DNA of 64,000 nt from Fragilariopsis cylindrus CCMP1102 (lineage: Eukaryota; Bacillariophyta; Bacillariophyceae; Bacillariales; Bacillariaceae): positions 372,001 to 436,000 of the forward strand of contig FMBT01000291.1 of assembly GCA_900095095.1 (NCBI GenBank), read 5' to 3'. Of the stretch, positions 8,034-38,576 are shown in pieces. Every line of letters begins with the position of its first letter. The first letter of the stretch is position 1. The translations under genes were made by a program, and so were the position numbers. The notes under the pieces were generated by a model. It made no database searches, was not told where the DNA came from, and saw only the letters and a program-made list of their open reading frames with translations.

Positions 8034-10053
8034 ATGACGACTACTACTGCGCAACCTGATGTCGATGTTATATTTGAGGACTGTAAAAATTCTGGGGATG
8101 GTTCACAAGAATATCAAATGAAATGTGTTATTCAACATCTTGTTACACAAGATTCAAAGGATTCCCAATACACAAGTCAAGTATTTTTAGTATACAGTGC
8201 CGCATTAGTTTTTTTCATGCAGGCAGGATTTGCTATGATATGTGCTGGTGCTGTCCGAAAAAAGAATGTAGGGAATAGCATGTTAAAGAATCTATTAGAT
8301 GCGGTGAGTACAATTGTATTGTGAAATAACGAAATACACACTATGAATTTGATCTTAATTGTTCTCGTTTCTTATCTTAGATTCTTATTCTTTCTTCTCT
8401 CACATTTTATCACGACCACAAATACTCGTTTTCTTCTTTATATATTGCGCTCATGAACATCTTCTTTTCTGATTAAAAATATAATTAATTAGTGCGGTGC
8501 CGCAATTGCTTACTTCTGCTTCGGTTATGCATTTGCCTTTGGAGATGGGAGCAATCCGAACGGCTTCATAGGAACAACCAATTTCTTCCTAATGGGAGTT
8601 GATAATTATGCTTTCTGGATGTTTGAATATGCATTTTCAGCTGCATCTTGTACAATCGTAGCTGGAACGTTAGCAGAACGATGTCAAATGGCCGCATACC
8701 TTTGCTACTCACTTGTACTAACCGGTTTCGTCTATCCAGTTGTTTCACATGCTATTTGGAGTCCACATGGTTTCTTAACCTCAAATATACAAAATGAAAA
8801 TCCATTGTTTGGAAGCGGCGTTGTTGACTTTGCCGGTGGTGGTGTTGTCCATCTAGTTGGGGGTTGTACTGCACTCTTCGCAACGATGATCTTAGGACCC
8901 AGACGAGGAAGATTCCACGATAATGAGGGACGGAAGCTAGACAAACCCAATAACTTTCCCGGTCATTCCATTGCCTTGCAGGTACGTTCTCGTTTTGTTA
9001 CGTGCTATTGTTCTCCTTCTGCTTTTGTTGCTGTTGCTGTTGCTGTTGATATTGCTGTTGCTGTTGATATTGCTATTGTTGTTGCTATTGCTATTGCTAT
9101 TGCTATTGACACGAGAAATGACGATTAGACACAGCCCCTTTATCTACCGAAATATGCTATGCGTCTTCGTCTCTCATTTCCCCCTTTTTCTTAATAACTG
9201 AAATTTTCCGCAGATGCTTGGGTCCTTCATTCTATGGTTTGGTTGGTACGGATTCAATTCAGGGAGTGCTCTAATCACTTCTTCCCATGAGCGAGGGAAA
9301 TTAGTAGCTCTCTGTGCGGTCAATACAACACTTTCTGGAGGAGCTGGCGGATTAACGGCCCTTTTTGTCAATTTATTGATTCTTGAACGACGGTTAGGTG
9401 AACCTATCTTCGATCTGAAAATGGCAATGAACGGAAGCTTGAGTGGATTGGTGGCCATTACAGCAGGATGCGGTGTAGTAGAGCCTTGGGCTGCTTTACT
9501 CATTGGAATATTTGCTGGTCTCTTATATCTTGGCGGTAGCAACCTTTTACTCAAGCTTCGATTGGACGATGCGGTCGATGCAATACCTATACATATGGTG
9601 AATGGTATGTGGGGCTTAATTGCTGTTGGTTTCGTGGCATCACCCCGTAACTTGAATCTGACATACGGAATAGAAGTGCCCCACGTAGGATGGTTTTATT
9701 CTTTGGCACGAGGTAGCGGCGATGCTCGATTGTTGGCAGCTCAATTGGTTGGCATTCTTTTTATTCTTGGATGGTGTTTGATAATCATGATGCCTTTTTT
9801 CGTTTGGCTGGACTGGAAAGGATGGTTCCGTTCGGATCCTTTGGAAGAAATTGTTGGTCTAGACACATCGTACCATGGTGGTCTTATATTAATGAGTGGT
9901 GACGACTCTGTTAATCCTGAATACGTTTCACAATTCAAGAAACAGAGAAACGAGATAAGGCAACGTCGAACATCCAAAGCAGTCCCACTCGACGCAGATG
10001 ATGAATCTTTAGACGACAGAGGAGGGAACGCCACTACTGTAGGGACGACATAA
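8034..10053 (+). CDS. AMT1: Ammonium transporter (AMT/Rh family)
   Basis: Three exons, 8034-8303, 8493-8981 and 9214-10053, with introns in phase 0, give 532 residues. The protein is a plasma-membrane ammonium channel/transporter forming trimers. The first helix segment is [20 protein letters not shown]. The segment [15 protein letters not shown] holds the conserved pore Asp and the first pore His (about residue 210). The segment [16 protein letters not shown] holds the second pore His (about residue 380). [10 protein letters not shown] and [13 protein letters not shown] are standard AMT blocks. A hydrophilic cytoplasmic tail of about 80 residues ends with Asp/Arg-rich sequence. Intron 2 contains a (GTTGCT)n microsatellite (9027-9110). 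The unusual part is upstream: a 160-bp sequence is duplicated in tandem just before the ATG, which may change nitrogen-dependent control. The exon structure is unambiguous. Confidence 0.95.
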
Positions 10054-10421
10054 TAGAATAAAAAATATTATACAATATTCACTTAGATTTTACTATCAAT
10101 TATTAGTATTATATATAATAAGACCAAGTTCACGAGCTTGAACCCCTTCTTCGCTCTACTGTCCGTGCAACCCGGCTTATCTTTTTTGATTTATTTATCT
10201 TCGTTGGGAGTATGTAGGGATAGCAGACACTGCACGATACAGACGCGTATACACGAGTAACAAATAACATAAAAGTTCATTTCAACGTTTTTACAAGATA
10301 ATTCAATGGCAACTTCAACCTCCAATTCGTCTCCATATTGGACGGGAGGAATACCGAATGATATTTCAAATCCGTGGACGGTTTACTGTCATCTTACACG
10401 TTGCCCTCGTACGCACTATGC
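10054..10421. other. Intergenic
   Basis: Convergent 3' space between the ammonium transporter and the kinase gene. It is AT-rich and shows no gene, RNA or repeat. Confidence 0.6.
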
Positions 10422-12252
10422 CTAAAATTCAAGGTACGATTTCTCTGACAAGAAATGTTCCTGCTCTTCTGACTTCACTCCCAACAATACATCATTTATC
10501 CATGGGGAAGATCGTCGCGCCTTTCGGATTGACACTCGTTTTTTCTCCGAAACCTCTGTAAGATTTTTAATCAAATCTTGGAGTTCTTCCGATAGTTCTG
10601 AAGTTAAACGATAGTGAACCGACCTTTTCCCCTGATCCTTTTTATTACCTCCACAAAGTTTGAAGCAGAAACTATTTTGGGTACTAATTGCTGCCTCAAC
10701 GCTTTCACCGGGCATGACACCTGTCATACAGTACCGAATGGTATGACCCATGGAATAGGAATCAACAAGCAAACCATAGTCTGCTACGTATTCCGATATT
10801 GTTTCCGTCACCGACGAGATCCCCCCTTCTTTTTCTTCGGAAGTGGCATGCTTTACCTTATTAATAATTTCTGGTGCAGCAAAGTTACGATTACCCAAAG
10901 CTTCCAACATGAATTGGTAACAGAATGAATGAGTGAGTTTTTACAAAAAATATAACACTACTGCACTAAGTTACATCGTATTGAAGATATCGCGTCGCGT
11001 ACCTGACATTCGACTATGCGTTCCATGTGATACACTCCCACGCCCCCGACTGCTTGATTCATTCGTATCCTCGTTAGTTGATTCAGTCTTAGCAGAGTCA
11101 TCTAAATTTCTGAAGCTCGCTCTTTTATTTTCCTGGTGAATTTCCTTGCTGGGATTAATGATGTCCTTTTCTTTTAGTGCTCGTGCAAAGCCAAAATCGA
11201 TTAGGGTTACCTGGGAAAATGCATGTGTTTTCAAGCGATAGAAAAGTGGTTCCGTTGAGTCAAGTCAAGTCAAGTCAAGTCAATTTGTAGGTGAATTTGC
11301 AAACCGATACCTAACAGACACTAGATATAATGTCACATACCTTCCATTTTCCCCTTTTTTCATCCCAATTTTTAGATTTCGATGAAGGACCTTCGTTGTC
11401 CCAAATCTCGTCATCTTTGGACACAGCACCTAATTTATTATATTATTGCGCAAACCCGTTAATTTTAATAATGGTAAGATAACGATGTGTTTTTGAAACA
11501 AACAAACAAACAAACAAACAAACAGATCATTCATTATCTTATAATTGCTACTGTACCCGTTATTCCTCCCAGGGAGTAACAATAATATAGTCTATCTTAC
11601 CAGTTATCATTATATTATCTGGCTTGATATCGCGGTGAAGGACGCCTCGATAATGCATGTAGGCGACTGTATCTACCACCTGTGCAAGAACAACGCGTCC
11701 AAATACATTCGATAGGGCACCACCATGTTGCAAAAGAGATTCTACCGTTGGACCTTTTGCGTAACTCAGAGCTATGACACATATCGCGTTGTTCTTTGGA
11801 CGATCCTCTTTTCCTTCCAACAGGTCCCAGTAGTTTATGACCTAAAAGTATTTATATATGAAGTATACGAATATATAGAGGACACACAGATTATTTGGGA
11901 TGAGATAGAATAAATCACTTCATACGAATAAAAATTATCGTCAACCGATTTCAATATATATACATATATATATAATATTGATCAAGAAGTATTATCTCAC
12001 CTTCACAATATTCTCATGATCTAATCGGCGTAAGATTTCAATTTCACGTTGAGCGTATGCTGCGGTCTTCTTTTCTGCTTCGACGTTACCCACATCTTCA
12101 CTAGAACTACCGACAACCTTTACTGCAACCTTAGTTTTGGAATCGTTCTTATCACGTGCTAAGACAACCGACGCAAATCCACCTTTACCCAGCACACGGA
12201 TCGGAGAATAGATATTTGATACTTCCGTAGGCCATTCTTTTGGAATTTCCAT
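10422..12252 (-). CDS. Serine/threonine protein kinase, five exons
   Basis: Exons are 12252-12001, 11841-11601, 11429-11341, 11210-11003 and 10900-10422. All junctions are GT-AG and phase-consistent, giving 422 residues. Kinase landmarks in order: glycine loop GKGGFASVVLA, ATP-binding Lys in KVAVKVV, helix C Glu in QREIEILRRLDHENIVK, catalytic loop HRDIKPDNIM, metal-binding DFG in LIDFGFARAL, and APE motif FAAPEII. It is therefore predicted active. The activation segment is stretched by a Ser/Arg/Thr-rich insert of about 60 residues between DFG and APE. The C-lobe is unusual, with FCFKLCGGNKKDQGKR in it. I cannot place it in a named subfamily. The last acceptor (before LGNRNFAAPEII) lies inside what looks like a start codon context, so a gene finder could miscall that exon. 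A (GTCAA)n stretch lies in intron 3 and an (AAAC)n stretch in intron 2. Confidence 0.85.
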
Positions 12253-32633: not shown

Positions 32634-34445
32634 ATTATGACCGGTCACGATTCTCAATGATAGAAACTTACCAGCATGGAAAAACCCGGTTTCCAGAATG
32701 TTCCTATGAAGGGGAATGTATAGAGAGAAAGAGATAGATCTCATTAGCCCGTGAAGTTCACGAGAATCTTAATACATACGCTTTCTGTATCTGACTATAT
32801 ACAGCCAATATAGCCTGTCATGTGCAGAATTACTAGTAACTGTACTTACCTGCCAAAACAATAGGTAAGACCTTTCAATAGTTTTCTTCCAAATAATTTT
32901 GCTTCGGGACTATCCGGATCGATTCCACGTCTTTCCATCTCCTCTGATGCTCTTGACAACGGAACGCCTTCTAGATAATCCATAACTAACACTCGTTTGG
33001 TTATTAGACCTGATACAGGACGTGGCAAGACCAATGGTGGTTCAGTCAATTCTGTACCATCAGCAGACCTAGTCAACGAATTGTATATTCGATCCATAGC
33101 AACAGCCTCGGCAACAAAATCAAATTCATCTGCCAATTGACTTTCTAATTCAGCAAAAACGGTATAGTAGTCCAACGGCAATGCATCAAGATTACGAAAG
33201 ACCTTAGAAACTGCCTTCAAATTGGCAACATCGCCCATTAATTTCGATTCAATAGACGGTCGTTGGACCTTAACGGCCACCTCCCGACCCCCGTATTCTT
33301 CGGTGAGTACTGCACGATGGACTTGTGCAACTGACGCAGCACCTAAAGGCTCGTCATCGAATTCAGCAAACACGTCACTAAATTTTTCATTTCGATTCAA
33401 TAGTTCCTTTTCAACAACTGCTTTAACGATGGATACTGGCATCGGGTCGAGATTGTCCGTAAATCCACTAAGAGCATCAGTATATTGTTTTGGAAAAAGA
33501 TCTTGTCGAGTTGATATGATCTGAGCTGTTTTGACGTAAAAACCTTTCAATTCGGTAGTGACGTCTGTATAGAATTTAAAAAAAACAATAAATTTTACCC
33601 AAGCAGTCGTTTTTCAGTATGATATATTCGATTCATACTTCATTTCAATTAGTTGATCATTTCATTACGCACAAACCACATCATCGTAACTTACCGGCAA
33701 GCTTCTTAGCACCATCTACGTGAAGGACATCCCACAGCCTCTACGATAATGTATAGAAAGAAGAAGAAAAGAAAGAAATATATTGGTTATCGGAAGAATC
33801 ATATCATATGTTCAATATTGACCAAAAATATTATATTCATTATCGTCGTAGTCCAAGGACTAGAAAATGAATATAATAGAATAGGAAAAATTGACGGAAA
33901 TGTTACAAAAGCTTTCCAACTAACTACGGATGCATTTTGCATGTAATTGAGCACATTATTAATATTACAACATACGTCATAAACATAGCACGTACCTCGA
34001 TATCTTCCTCGTCGATACTTTCTGATTTCAACATTTCTTGTAATTTAATATTACCAATTAAACCAATATAATTTGCTATAATTGGAACCGCTGTGGAATA
34101 AAATGTTGCTGCTCGTTTCATTTGATCAATAGATGTCAGTGGTGGAGGAAATTCAACATCACCGAAACTCTCATCGTCGTCCACGATGTTGCTGCTGCCG
34201 ATAATAGGAGTAGTAGTAGCAGCAGCAGCAGCAGTAGCAGCATTACTTTCTACATCGCTGTTACTACTGCTGGTTTCTAATTGTGTAGCTGCCGCATAGG
34301 ATCGTATCGTCTTTTTCTTCCATACAGAGGGCGTTACTCTATTGTGACCTTGCTGTAATGTTAGAGAATTCAGTGCATCATTTTGTTGCAGAGTAGAGAG
34401 AAATATAATTCCGACTAATGGTACGACGACACCGAGATTTTTCAT
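31750..34445 (-). CDS. ABC1/ADCK atypical kinase, second copy type (six exons)
   Basis: Exons are 34445-33996, 33740-33695 (46 bases), 33564-32850, 32703-32672 (32 bases), 32523-32244 and 32131-31750. Every phase agrees, giving 634 residues. Marks of the ABC1 family: GFYVKTAQIISTRQDLFP (KxAQ variant of KxGQ), PLGAASVAQVHRAVL with GREVAVKVQRP, KRVLVMDYLEGVPL, the catalytic HADPHPGNIF assembled across exons 4 and 5, and IGLIDFGQVKQ. The N-terminus (LGVVVPLVGIIFLSTLQQND) is a signal or anchor segment without a clear Phe motif, so the destination is open. The 32-base microexon encodes the residues right before DPHPGN, as in the other ABC1 gene at 14666-17501. The sequences differ enough that this is not a recent duplicate. 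It diverges from the selenoprotein candidate with 524 bases between. Confidence 0.9.
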
Positions 34446-34969
34446 TATGATACAGTACATGTATAATAATCGATTCCGATCCCTATCTTCGCTTCTGTGG
34501 CATAGATGTAATATTGAATTGCTCCCTCTCAACGACTGTCAGATTCTTCGTAGTTGTCGTTCTATTATACTGTAACTCCTACTCCTTACAACTTCTGACA
34601 CTACGGCACACAATAATTGGCACAAGTCAAGAGTCAAGTTATTGTTATGTGTTTCGATCATGTTGTCGAGATAATTATTGTTCATACTTTTCTCTCGATG
34701 CATACTGTCTGACCGTACGGGACTGATAAAAACAAATACTAAAATGACGTCATATTATTATTGATTGATCGACTACAAAACACACTCTGACCGCATGCAT
34801 GACTCACTCACATCACTGTTACATGCATCTTACTGTAACATCGTACGGTCGGTACATTAGAGATTTGTTTTCTGTTGGAACACGAAGTGTTCAGTTTGAT
34901 TTCTTTCGACAACATAATAATAATAATCAATATCTTATCTTTAGAAAAGCCACATAATATTATTACGAT
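34446..34969. promoter_or_regulatory. Bidirectional promoter with a perfect CRE (TGACGTCA) and a TGACTCA site
   Basis: Between the ABC1 kinase (-) and the selenoprotein candidate (+). TGACGTCA lies at 34745-34752 and TGACTCA at 34800-34806, both palindromic bZIP targets. TGACGT-type elements are known from work in Phaeodactylum to mediate CO2/cAMP and light control of plastid genes; a similar role here is inference. Confidence 0.45.
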
Positions 34970-35305
34970 ATGACCAAGTTATTAATCATCTTTCTCGCTG
35001 CTGCACTTCTTACTCTCTCATCAGTCTCTGGATTTGCACCGCAACTTCATCAACCTACTTCTTTTGCATCAACATCAACATCGACGCAACTAGACGCTGC
35101 TCCAACTATGGTCGTCTACTGAACCATAAAGAGTGCTATCGACTATGTCGGTTACGCCACGGGACAAACAGATAAATGGCAAGGCACAGGAGTTTGGAAA
35201 GGCCTGAAAGTAAGTCGTGATGACGAAGAAGGGGATGATGGTTCACCTAAGAATCCTCCTCCCTCGAAAAAAGAGGAAGAAAAGACTGCTCCAAAATCGA
35301 GTTAA
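34970..35305 (+). CDS. Candidate plastid-targeted selenoprotein (one in-frame TGA, codon 51)
   Basis: Single exon of 111 codons ending with TAA at 35303, if the TGA at 35120-35122 is read as selenocysteine. Upstream of it: a signal peptide MTKLLIIFLAAALLTLSSVS followed by GFAPQLHQ, almost the textbook diatom ASAFAP plastid-import motif, then a Ser/Thr-rich transit region. The TGA sits in the context MVVY-U-TIKSAID. Another 60 codons stay open, with sensible protein sequence (YVGYATGQTDKWQGTGVWKG) and an acidic/Lys-rich tail (KKEEEKTAPKSS). A SECIS-like hairpin lies about 200 bases after the TAA. I do not recognise the family; there is no CxxU redox motif. Alternatives are a truncated 50-residue peptide, a pseudogene with one nonsense change, or a tiny intron (no good splice sites flank the TGA). 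Confidence 0.6.
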
Positions 35306-35501
35306 ATAAAGAATGTGGTGTGTTGTGTTGTTCGACGAAGATATTCCACAAACACCATAATATCTGCCCTATCATATTGATTTTTCTGTTCGAGAGATAA
35401 GAACATCTTGTGAGATAGACGAATTAATTAGTGAATCAAATCGAATCAAATCCATCCAGTTAATTGATTTTTTAAAGTAACCGAAAGTGTACCGTTTATG
35501 G

Positions 35502-35569
35502 CAGTGAATGACGATTGAGATAGAAGACCAAGTTTTTCCTTTCTTTCATTTCAATCTGAAGAAAAACTG
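35502..35569 (+). promoter_or_regulatory. SECIS-like hairpin in the 3' UTR
   Basis: ATGA at 35508-35511 is followed by a stem: GATTGA (35513-35518) pairs perfectly with TCAATC (35551-35556), and GAT with ATT. After one A/C mismatch, GAAG pairs with CTTT. The 3' strand runs into TGAA (35557-35560), giving the AUGA/UGAA quartet. AA occurs 12 bases after ATGA (35524-35525), the usual SECIS spacing, at the base of the apical loop. Below the quartet is an internal loop (GA opposite GAAAA) and then CAGT/ACTG pairing. These are the parts of a eukaryotic SECIS, but I judged the folding by eye. Confidence 0.5.
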
Positions 35570-36323
35570 ATGCTATTACCTACATACAATTTTGTCTATT
35601 GATTTCACCGTTGTCCCGTGTGAATTCATTATCCAAACAAAACGAAAAAAATTGTAGAGAATGGCAACTGTTGCGTCCATAACGTTACTATTTAGTTAAG
35701 AAGAAAATCGGAAATTGATTCATATTTTATTTTAAAGGTTGGGAACGCACTACGATACGAATGTAGAATGATAAAGCAATACATTGTAAACATTCAAGAT
35801 TAAAATAAAAAAAAATCATAAGAACTATATTCTTGACTTTGTACGTGTACTTCAATACCAAATCTATATTGTATATAATAATATATACCGCTTTCACAAT
35901 GTTGTATACACTTAAAATTAGAAATACAGTGATGAAAAAGATTAAATCATAGTTTCTCGTGCAGCACGGAAAAAGCACCGACGATAACTGGATCACCAGC
36001 AGTGATTGTAGATTTTCGTGCTAAATTGTTGTTGACAGTAGTGAAGTGAAAGCCTGTCGTCGTCATCGTCGTCATGCCGAAATGCGAAAGTTTTACAATT
36101 TGGAGAATTTTTGTAAATTACGGGACTAGATTTGATCACGGATATGTTAGTAGTCCGCCGTGATCAAATCTACATTCCCGTAAGCTCCAATTTGGAAATT
36201 GATAATCGTGAAAATAAGGCAGCACGAACGACACAACAATAAACAATTACAACAACAGAACAACAACAACAACACAACAACACTCACACATCATCTGATA
36301 ATAAAAGACTTGAATAAATAAAA
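35570..36323. other. Intergenic, with an inverted repeat
   Basis: AT-rich DNA up to the CWC15 start, which has a CAA-rich leader (36240-36300). The one structured feature is the inverted repeat listed separately. Confidence 0.5.
36119..36183. repeat. Inverted repeat, 24-26 base arms
   Basis: The core arms TAGATTTGATCACGG (36127-36141) and CCGTGATCAAATCTA (36158-36172) are perfect complements around a 16-base loop. Pairing resumes outside them (TTACGGGA with TCCCGTAA) after a 2-base slip. It lies about 140-200 bases upstream of the CWC15 ATG and could be a foldback-element scar or an RNA/DNA hairpin. Confidence 0.85.
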
Positions 36324-37133
36324 ATGACTACCGCACACAGACCTACGTGGAAGGCCGCAGTCGGTAAGACAGGCGAAGGAGGATGGAATTCTGGCGGTAT
36401 AGGGGGTTCCGCTGGTTTGAGCCATTTAGACTTACCAGCTCATACAAAATTGAAATTCCGTACGGGAAAGCAAGTTGTGGATCGTCAACAATCTTTAAAG
36501 GAATCTCTTAATAAACTTGCAAAGGCTGAAAAGGAAGCCAATAAACGATTACTACAACGACCAGCCGTCGATGAAGAAGTTGAAAAGGAGGGTAGATTAA
36601 AGTTATTAAAATCAACGGCCGAAGTTGATGAAACTGCAATTAAAGCAAAATACGACGATGCTGATGCTTCTGATGATGACGGCGATGACGATGATGATGA
36701 TAATAATAACGGAAAAGGAGGTGGTGGGGATGGATGGAGTGATGCAGATAATGATGATCTAGATGCGAGTAGTGACGAAGACGATTCTGATGACGACGAT
36801 TCTGACGACGATGAAGATGATGAAGCTGCACTAATGGCAGAATTGGCAAAAATAAAGGCAGAACGAGAAGCCGTGAAAAAACAAGAGGAAGAAAAAGAGG
36901 CAGCACGAGATGAAGAAAAATTAGAAGAAGCTGCATTGTTGGGAAATCCATTGTTGGCTGGTGCTAGTAATAACAACAATAATAGTAGTAGTGGTAGACT
37001 CAAACGACGATGGAATGAAGATGTTGTATTTCGTAACCAAGCAAAGGGAGAGCCTGAAATTAAAAAACGGTTCATCAATGATACCGTTCGAAATGACTTC
37101 CATAAAAGATTCCTAAACAAATTCATACGATAG
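36324..37133 (+). CDS. CWC15: Pre-mRNA-splicing factor CWC15 (Cwf15)
   Basis: Single exon, 269 residues. CWC15 is a component of the Prp19/CDC5L-associated complex in activated spliceosomes. Both conserved ends are present: MTTAHRPTWKAAVGKTGEGG with LSHLDLPAHTKLKFRT at the N-terminus, and RRWNEDVVFRNQAKGEP with FINDTVRNDFHKRFLNKFIR at the C-terminus. Between them is a disordered middle with long Asp runs and a Lys/Glu coiled coil (ALMAELAKIKAEREAVKKQ), also usual for the family. Length is typical. It is convergent with the oxygenase gene 193 bases away. Confidence 0.96.
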   Translation: MTTAHRPTWKAAVGKTGEGGWNSGGIGGSAGLSHLDLPAHTKLKFRTGKQVVDRQQSLKESLNKLAKAEKEANKRLLQRPAVDEEVEKEGRLKLLKSTAEVDETAIKAKYDDADASDDDGDDDDDDNNNGKGGGGDGWSDADNDDLDASSDEDDSDDDDSDDDEDDEAALMAELAKIKAEREAVKKQEEEKEAARDEEKLEEAALLGNPLLAGASNNNNNSSSGRLKRRWNEDVVFRNQAKGEPEIKKRFINDTVRNDFHKRFLNKFIR

Positions 37134-37326
37134 AAAAATTGTTCGCGAAACCAAAGAGAAAAAGACAGCACTCTTTTACAAAATAATATAGCTGTAATTA
37201 TGAATATAAATAAATATATATATATACTGTAATTTAGAAATATTAAATATATTATTTTGAATTTGCTGATAGGATGATTGAACATGTTGAGAGTAGTTGG
37301 TACGTATTATACATTATAGATAGGCT

Positions 37327-38576
37327 TTAACTTCTAGCTAGATTGGTTGATTGGTCTCTTCTCTTTATGATTCTACCATCATCTAATATCTTTAGGTCTT
37401 TATGATGTCGAGCGAAGACTTTGGGATGGGACCGAGCTAAACTTTTAAAGGTATTATCTCCCACCGATGGTATCATAAGATTATTCGGTCTTTGCCATTG
37501 TTGATAGTCTTGAGGTCGTTCCCATGATAAATTACTTATTTTGTTGCTGTCCAATGGTCCCATTGTAGCAGCCAAGCTAGGATTGTAGAAAAGTGCCACA
37601 GAAGTTCGCGGAGTACGTGGAATATTACTTGTAGTGGCGAATGACGACGATGATGATGTCCTCATGATCACCCGATGAGGCGTGGCTAGAAAATAACCAT
37701 TGGACCAGGTTTGTACTTGTTCTCCGAGATTGCATATCAAGTACCTACTACTACTGCTACTACTACTACTACTACTACTACACTTTGTACTATCGCCGTT
37801 GGTATCATCATCGTCGATAGAAGAAGAGGGTACGTCGATCCATTCACCCTGAGAAAAAGCTTGAAGTACTCCGTCCGTCGACGAATCTTGTGCAAGCAAA
37901 GTTAGGAAGTTAGTATCTGTATGCTCTCCAACTCCTTGTTGGGTTGATTTTTCAGATTCAGATTCAGATTCATTGGGTGGATAAGAAATTAATTTGATAA
38001 CCCAGTGTGGAACTTCGGTAGGGTGGAAAAATTTATCGTGTAATGTATCCTTTGGATCTAGTTTCAATGCCAAACAAAGTGAGTCCCTAATTACATCCGC
38101 TATGGCGCACACTTCCGTGGAATATTTCGTGGTTGTTGATTTCAGAGTAGGTTGAATATCATCGGGCCATGGATTTCTACCCTTCAAACGTTCGTATACG
38201 GGAAAGGATTTGTTGTGTTGATATGCGCTGCTGTTGTCCTTGTCCTTATTTTTCAAATTGTATTCGACGGCGTATTCCACTTGTTCTCTATAATCCAATT
38301 TGCCACTTGTATTCTCAACGCCGAGTTTCATAAAACCTCTAAATGATGGACTATTTTCGTATGAAATACGCATTTTATCATCTAGTGGTCTTCTAAAGAA
38401 CGATCGTGTTTCATCCAACATATTTTGTGCTAGATCACCGAATTCATGTCTAATCAAAAAGAATCCAACATTATGACAGGCAGCTCGAAGCTCTTCACAA
38501 ATGCCCGACGGTCACTGTAATACTGTTTTATGCTGAGAATTGGTATCCTCCGAGGACAGCTCCTGTTACGATTCAT
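37327..38576 (-). CDS. 2-oxoglutarate/Fe(II)-dependent oxygenase, IPNS-like
   Basis: The main frame (37327-38457, 376 residues) opens upstream to about 38510. Landmarks: GFFLIRHEF, YREQVEYAVEY, a jelly-roll core with iron ligands in EHTDTNFLTLL (HxD) and TPHRVIM (distal His), and PRTSVALFYNP with the 2OG-binding Arg-x-Ser/Thr. This is the DIOX/isopenicillin-N-synthase type; the substrate cannot be read from sequence. The natural N-terminus seems to start at the Met at 38576 (RRIPILSIKQYYSD, the usual IPxxD-like opening) but lies in a different frame. The join to ICEELRAACHNVGFFLIRH needs a single-base frame change near 38505. This is either a sequencing indel or a disabling mutation; a shortened product from 38457 would lack the first strand. 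A (TAG)n stretch codes polySer. Confidence 0.82.

Follow-up and report, generated by a model that had tools for sequence, protein, structure and literature searches.

Algal selenoproteins have been grouped into 42 families, with 20-44 genes in diatoms (PMC7539508, in the text available), and their genes combine an in-frame TGA with a downstream SECIS element in genomes rich in selenocysteine (Sec) genes. Some families have no assigned function, including the hypothetical selenoproteins of Ostreococcus (PMC2375036) and the algal 'Hypo' class (PMC7539508), as described in the available portions of these papers. Neither plastid nor chloroplast is mentioned in the available main text of PMC7539508, and a literature search that took in the available parts of PMC7539508, PMC2375036 and PMC5139114 found no small plastid selenoprotein of the kind considered below. 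Selenoprotein genes are easily truncated in annotation because the TGA is taken as a stop. Proteins of the SelK/SelS type are small, carry a single Sec outside any CxxU motif, and reside in the ER membrane with the Sec near the C-terminus.

The open reading frame (ORF) described here lies in a window of 64,000 nt, the whole stretch of DNA that was analysed (C90:372001-436000 of a 67.9 Mb, 818-contig assembly), and its frame is as originally predicted: 111 codons on the plus strand with a single TGA at codon 51, followed by 60 open codons to a TAA (Table 1). With SelK/SelS it shares small size, a single Sec and the lack of a CxxU motif, and differs from them in its plastid-type presequence and in a Sec placed near the presumed mature N-terminus. 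Like the algal selenoproteins of PMC7539508, it has an in-frame TGA, a downstream element that is SECIS-like, and a genome rich in Sec genes; unlike those described in the text available, it lacks a Pfam or NCBIfam match and a thioredoxin-like motif. The pairing of a Sec with a protein of no assigned function recalls the Ostreococcus hypothetical selenoproteins and the 'Hypo' class (PMC2375036, PMC7539508, available text), and the ORF may equal one of these published proteins, to which it is likened by description only. Judged from the sequence, TGA-51 probably encodes Sec, and the ORF would be a nuclear gene for a selenoprotein of 111 residues that is imported into the plastid. The original proposal of Sec at codon 51 gained a SECIS-like element of fitting place, strand and style, a genome that decodes Sec, and coding signal past the TGA; homologues in support of it were not found in the collections searched.

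Table 1. Features of the ORF, its 3' element and the neighbouring genes, in window positions
Feature	Position	Strand	Basis
ORF with in-frame TGA, 111 codons, ending in TAA	34970..35305	+	translated frame
Signal peptide-like stretch, residues 1-21, cleavage expected before F22	34970..35032	+	hydropathy; motif rule of PMC4329603 (available text); interpretation
FAP motif and Ser/Thr-rich transit-peptide-like stretch, residues 22-44, end guessed	35033..35101	+	translation; interpretation
TGA, codon 51, proposed selenocysteine	35120..35122	+	translated frame
Codons 52-111, coding-like, without Cys	35123..35302	+	codon scores; residue check
SECIS-like element in presumed 3' UTR	35498..35576	+	scanner; species rule; fold
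Helix I, 5' arm, pairing with 35566-35567 and 35571-35576	35498..35505	+	fold
5' core AUGAC	35508..35512	+	scanner
Helix II, 5' arm, 9 bp with 35548-35556	35513..35521	+	scanner
Apical AA, 12 nt past AUGA; paired in minimum-energy fold, open in SECIS reading	35525..35526	+	
3' core UGAA	35557..35560	+	scanner
ABC1 kinase	32846-33613	-	neighbour gene
Cwc15 splicing protein	36324-37130	+	neighbour gene
2OG-Fe(II) oxygenase	37327-38511	-	neighbour gene

By sequence, the ORF has no relative in Pfam, NCBIfam or PDB, and no domain match, thioredoxin-like motif or CxxU was found that would place it in a described family. Apart from the putative Sec, the 111-codon chain has no Cys, and U-51 lies outside any CxxU motif, as had been claimed. 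The ORF stretch is present in the assembly as a single copy, at its own place only, and no homologue was found in prokaryote genomes, phages, viral contigs or elsewhere in the same genome; a literature search by sequence words returned no match. The family PF08806 had no match in this genome, nor in the control genomes. AlphaFold2, run without an alignment, gave a low-confidence model with two helices (mean pLDDT 57), with which Foldseek found no match in PDB; neither outcome was counted as evidence.

The presequence had been read as a signal peptide followed by a plastid motif. The hydrophobic start and the VSG-FAP sequence are both there, and it is from the motif that a plastid destination is read. 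Residues 1-20 are strongly hydrophobic, with a mean hydropathy of 2.19 for residues 1-15 and 2.23 for residues 6-20. Next comes VSG-FAPQ, a sequence that conforms to the ASAFAP type, F being at +1 (PMC4329603, available text). By reading and hydropathy, the three hallmarks of red-lineage plastid targeting (a signal peptide, F at +1 and a Ser/Thr-rich transit peptide) were found, and the product appears, from this predicted presequence, to be plastid-targeted.

The genome decodes Sec, as it contains tRNA-Sec and ten loci of known families with an in-frame TGA. Among the 53 of 3172 tRNA-Sec candidates that were scored, at least 13 lie above the Rfam cut-off, and the anticodon is TCA in all three genes inspected. 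The tRNA-Sec genes L004-L011 (contigs C69, C547, C56 and C138) are arranged in tandem, the spacing between copies being 163 bp on both C69 and C547, and several pairs of contigs that carry tRNA-Sec genes look like two haplotypes. The TGA stands at the known Sec position in SelT (L012), five GPx loci (L016, L017, L018, L019 and L022, of which L022 continues with its next exon in L020), TGR (L030), SPS2 (L035), SelU (L037) and MsrA (L046); SPS2, like tRNA-Sec, belongs to the Sec machinery itself. Second copies, apparently from the other haplotype (L021, L023, L031 and L036), were excluded from this count of distinct loci; L016 and L017 may be alleles.

The SECIS-like element matches at 35509, on the same strand as the ORF and 203 nt past its TAA. 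Nine pairs of helix II (GAUUGAGAU/AUUUCAAUC) abut the core, helix I has eight pairs, and the fold is at -15.8 kcal/mol. The candidate 5' core, GUGAAUGACGA, shares an 11-nt identity with the core of GPx L020. In the known genes the distance from stop to core is 186 nt for SelT, 180, 149, 93, 83 and 56 nt for GPx L016, L017, L018, L020 and L019, 132 nt for TGR, 124 nt for MsrA, 69 nt for SelU and 159 nt for SPS2, which leaves the candidate slightly outside the range of 56-186 nt. The ORF list holds no further plus-strand ORF of at least 60 residues between 35306 and Cwc15, and a plus-strand SECIS there would therefore have no other obvious owner. An AATAAA at 35305-35310, which shares its first base with the end of the TAA and runs on into a GT-rich stretch, is a possible early poly(A) site, the hexamer occurring about 1.1 times per kb on the plus strand of the window; cleavage there, if used, could leave the mRNA without the SECIS-like element.

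The SECISearch pattern (NTGA, 10-13 nt, AA or CC, 15-39 nt, GA; PMC2375036, available text) accommodates the spacing of the candidate, ATGA-12-AA-32-GA, and when ATGA, eight contiguous helix II pairs and five pairs in helix I are required it matches the candidate and one minus-strand site in the window. Under these same requirements 2000 local shuffles gave 6 sites and 200 window shuffles gave 10. Six known 3' regions were tried as well, and even with the settings relaxed none passed at its true element; the filter is therefore not in the style of this species. Against the limits in the available text of PMC2375036, the candidate scores -15.8 vs -12.6 kcal/mol for the whole fold and -11.5 vs -3.7 for the upper stem; with the apical AA held open it reaches only -10.4 kcal/mol, too weak for the -12.6 limit, in a comparison in which the energy models may differ. 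Its folding z is -1.08, with 32 of 200 shuffles equally stable, and those of three known elements are 0.13, -1.21 and -2.07; as these values are ordinary, support for the element comes from geometry, place and strand, not from stability. Rfam found no SECIS in the window, nor any in 34900-36400 up to E 10. It likewise found none up to E 10 at the four true selenoprotein loci tested, and the null at the ORF was therefore not taken as negative. For the SECIS_1 family (RF00031), 133 of 1400 candidates across the genome were scored, and none was a match.

A first scanner looked for a canonical core UGAN, helix II, NGAN and helix I. When the energy cut-off was placed at the value of the candidate itself, the candidate was its sole plus-strand match in the window, beside three on the minus strand and four in 20 window shuffles; with no energy limit the counts were three, four and 23. 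Early scanner versions, which overlooked several of the true elements, were superseded. The elements of SelT and four GPx loci, and that of TGR as picked out by eye, have a common 5' core, AATGA[CT], and a 3' core that is mostly UGA. The final rule requires an energy of at most -12.7, at least seven pairs in helix I, at least eight paired positions among the first 12 nt of helix II, and C or T as the base that follows AATGA and as the one that precedes the 3' GA. Its thresholds were tuned stepwise after elements had been viewed, the candidate included: the helix II threshold was lowered from 9 to 8 once MsrA had been seen, and the C/T conditions followed an inspection of the known elements and of the candidate. 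An alignment of the ten known elements was poor beyond the 5' core, and no covariance model was built for that reason.

So defined, the rule matches nine of the ten known Sec loci. The exception is TGR, whose by-eye element has no helix I in a constrained fold. An earlier rule (nine pairs, without the C/T conditions), which had matched the TGR locus away from that element, gave 107 matches in 6,400 kb of shuffles and, in the window, three on the plus and one on the minus strand. The controls, 19 other loci on both strands (131 kb in total), produced four matches under the final rule. Three of these lie 3' of SelU, SPS2 and GPx L019, which had entered the set as stop-free controls from search tables and whose TGA was recognised only after the rule had matched; the fourth, at about 848 in L047 and upstream of an MsrA match, is unexplained.

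Within the window the final rule has two matches, at 35509 and at 11159, and none on the minus strand. The second (11143-11276, plus strand) lies about 1.1 kb past an ammonium-transporter ORF and is probably a chance match, translation of 10001-11300 having shown no fitting ORF. Shuffled sequence gave 75 matches in 12,800 kb for the window and 11 in 2,985 kb for the local stretch, and real sequence two unexplained matches in about 259 kb with both strands counted; chance matches are thus to be expected at about 0.004-0.008 per kb. The window contains 18 ORFs (12 + 6 on the two strands) that begin with ATG and have one internal TGA flanked on both sides by 40 codons or more. One of them, the candidate, has a rule match less than 300 nt past its stop, for an expectation of about 0.03 at the window-shuffle rate.

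These rates bear on the main alternative, that a recent nonsense mutation or an erroneous base created TGA-51 in an ordinary plastid gene, the simplest route being from TGG (Trp) to TGA, and that the SECIS-like stem is a coincidence. The single-base step, the Trp-containing segment after the TGA (KWQGTGVWK), the single assembled copy and the failure to find a Cys homologue in the collections searched all agree with such an origin. It would, however, require a SECIS-like element to have arisen by chance at the low rate given above, in the 3' region of a frame that has neither a frameshift nor a second stop, and under a rule that picks out true selenoprotein genes previously unrecognised. We regard it as unlikely, while giving it more weight than either of the explanations that follow. 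The AATGA[CT]-core rule is also a practical route to further selenoprotein genes in this genome, where SECIS_1 matched nowhere among the candidates scored.

Coding signal continues past the TGA. The mean codon log-odds is 0.180 for codons 52-111 and 0.105 for codons 1-50, and is negative in both shifted frames of the ORF; the ordinary composition attributed to the region past TGA-51 is borne out, the score there being at least equal to that before. Training of the log-odds used 23 long ORFs from the window, chunks of which have a median of 0.070, and the scores are rough because the training ORFs are impure, at least one (36488-37306) being antisense to Cwc15. Scores as high as that of codons 52-111 or higher occur in 2 of the 132 open stretches of at least 60 codons outside kept ORFs, the stretch itself being among the 132. 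The open length after TGA-51 is by itself not unusual: outside kept ORFs on both strands, 57 of 1267 TGAs are followed by at least 60 open codons. The region past the TGA does look coding, and the codon signal is stronger evidence for this than the open length. A true stop at TGA-51, with a 50-residue product or an ORF that is untranslated or due to chance, would be compatible with how often such open lengths occur, but the codon signal past the TGA is no lower than that before it, and a 50-residue product would presumably be nearly all targeting sequence; we consider this reading most improbable.

Equally improbable is that TGA-51 is spliced out, or undergoes low-level readthrough that inserts no Sec, for which a GTAAGT at 35210 might be cited though it lies 3' of the TGA, since the two halves share one frame, GT[AG]AG is absent between 34601 and TGA-51, and all the GTs in the ORF 5' of the TGA (GTTATT, GTCTCT, GTCGTC and GTCTAC) are not donor-like, which makes removal of the TGA by splicing unlikely. 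The site at 35210, AAA-GTAAGT in the second half of the ORF, is splice donor-like, and the C-terminal tail of the real transcript may differ from that translated here.

If TGA-51 is read as Sec, SBP2 and eEFSec, which we presume to be the factors involved, would bring Sec-tRNA(UCA) to UGA-51 by way of the SECIS-like stem, and insertion of Sec would let translation run on to the TAA. The presequence would route the product via the ER into the plastid and then be removed, leaving a mature protein of about 65-70 residues with the Sec near its new N-terminus, in a helix predicted at low confidence; beyond it would come a Trp/Gly segment and a charged tail. With no Cys elsewhere in the chain, the selenol could react only with another molecule, be it the thiol of a partner, glutathione or, as a diselenide, a further copy of the protein. 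Whether this amounts to an undescribed family of tiny, Cys-free plastid selenoproteins, in which Sec is the sole redox side chain of the thiol type and acts intermolecularly with a partner thiol, with glutathione or in a diselenide dimer, we put at even chances. A role in the plastid that is peroxide-reacting or redox-sensing would be our guess. A protein of this kind would place Sec in an unusual chemical setting and would connect the plastid chemistry of an alga with its supply of selenium.

The ORF is flanked by the genes listed in Table 1. Directly upstream of Cwc15 stands a strong hairpin (36111-36190), which in Rfam has sub-threshold miRNA matches only and which is built of 15-bp perfect arms with outer pairing of 80%.
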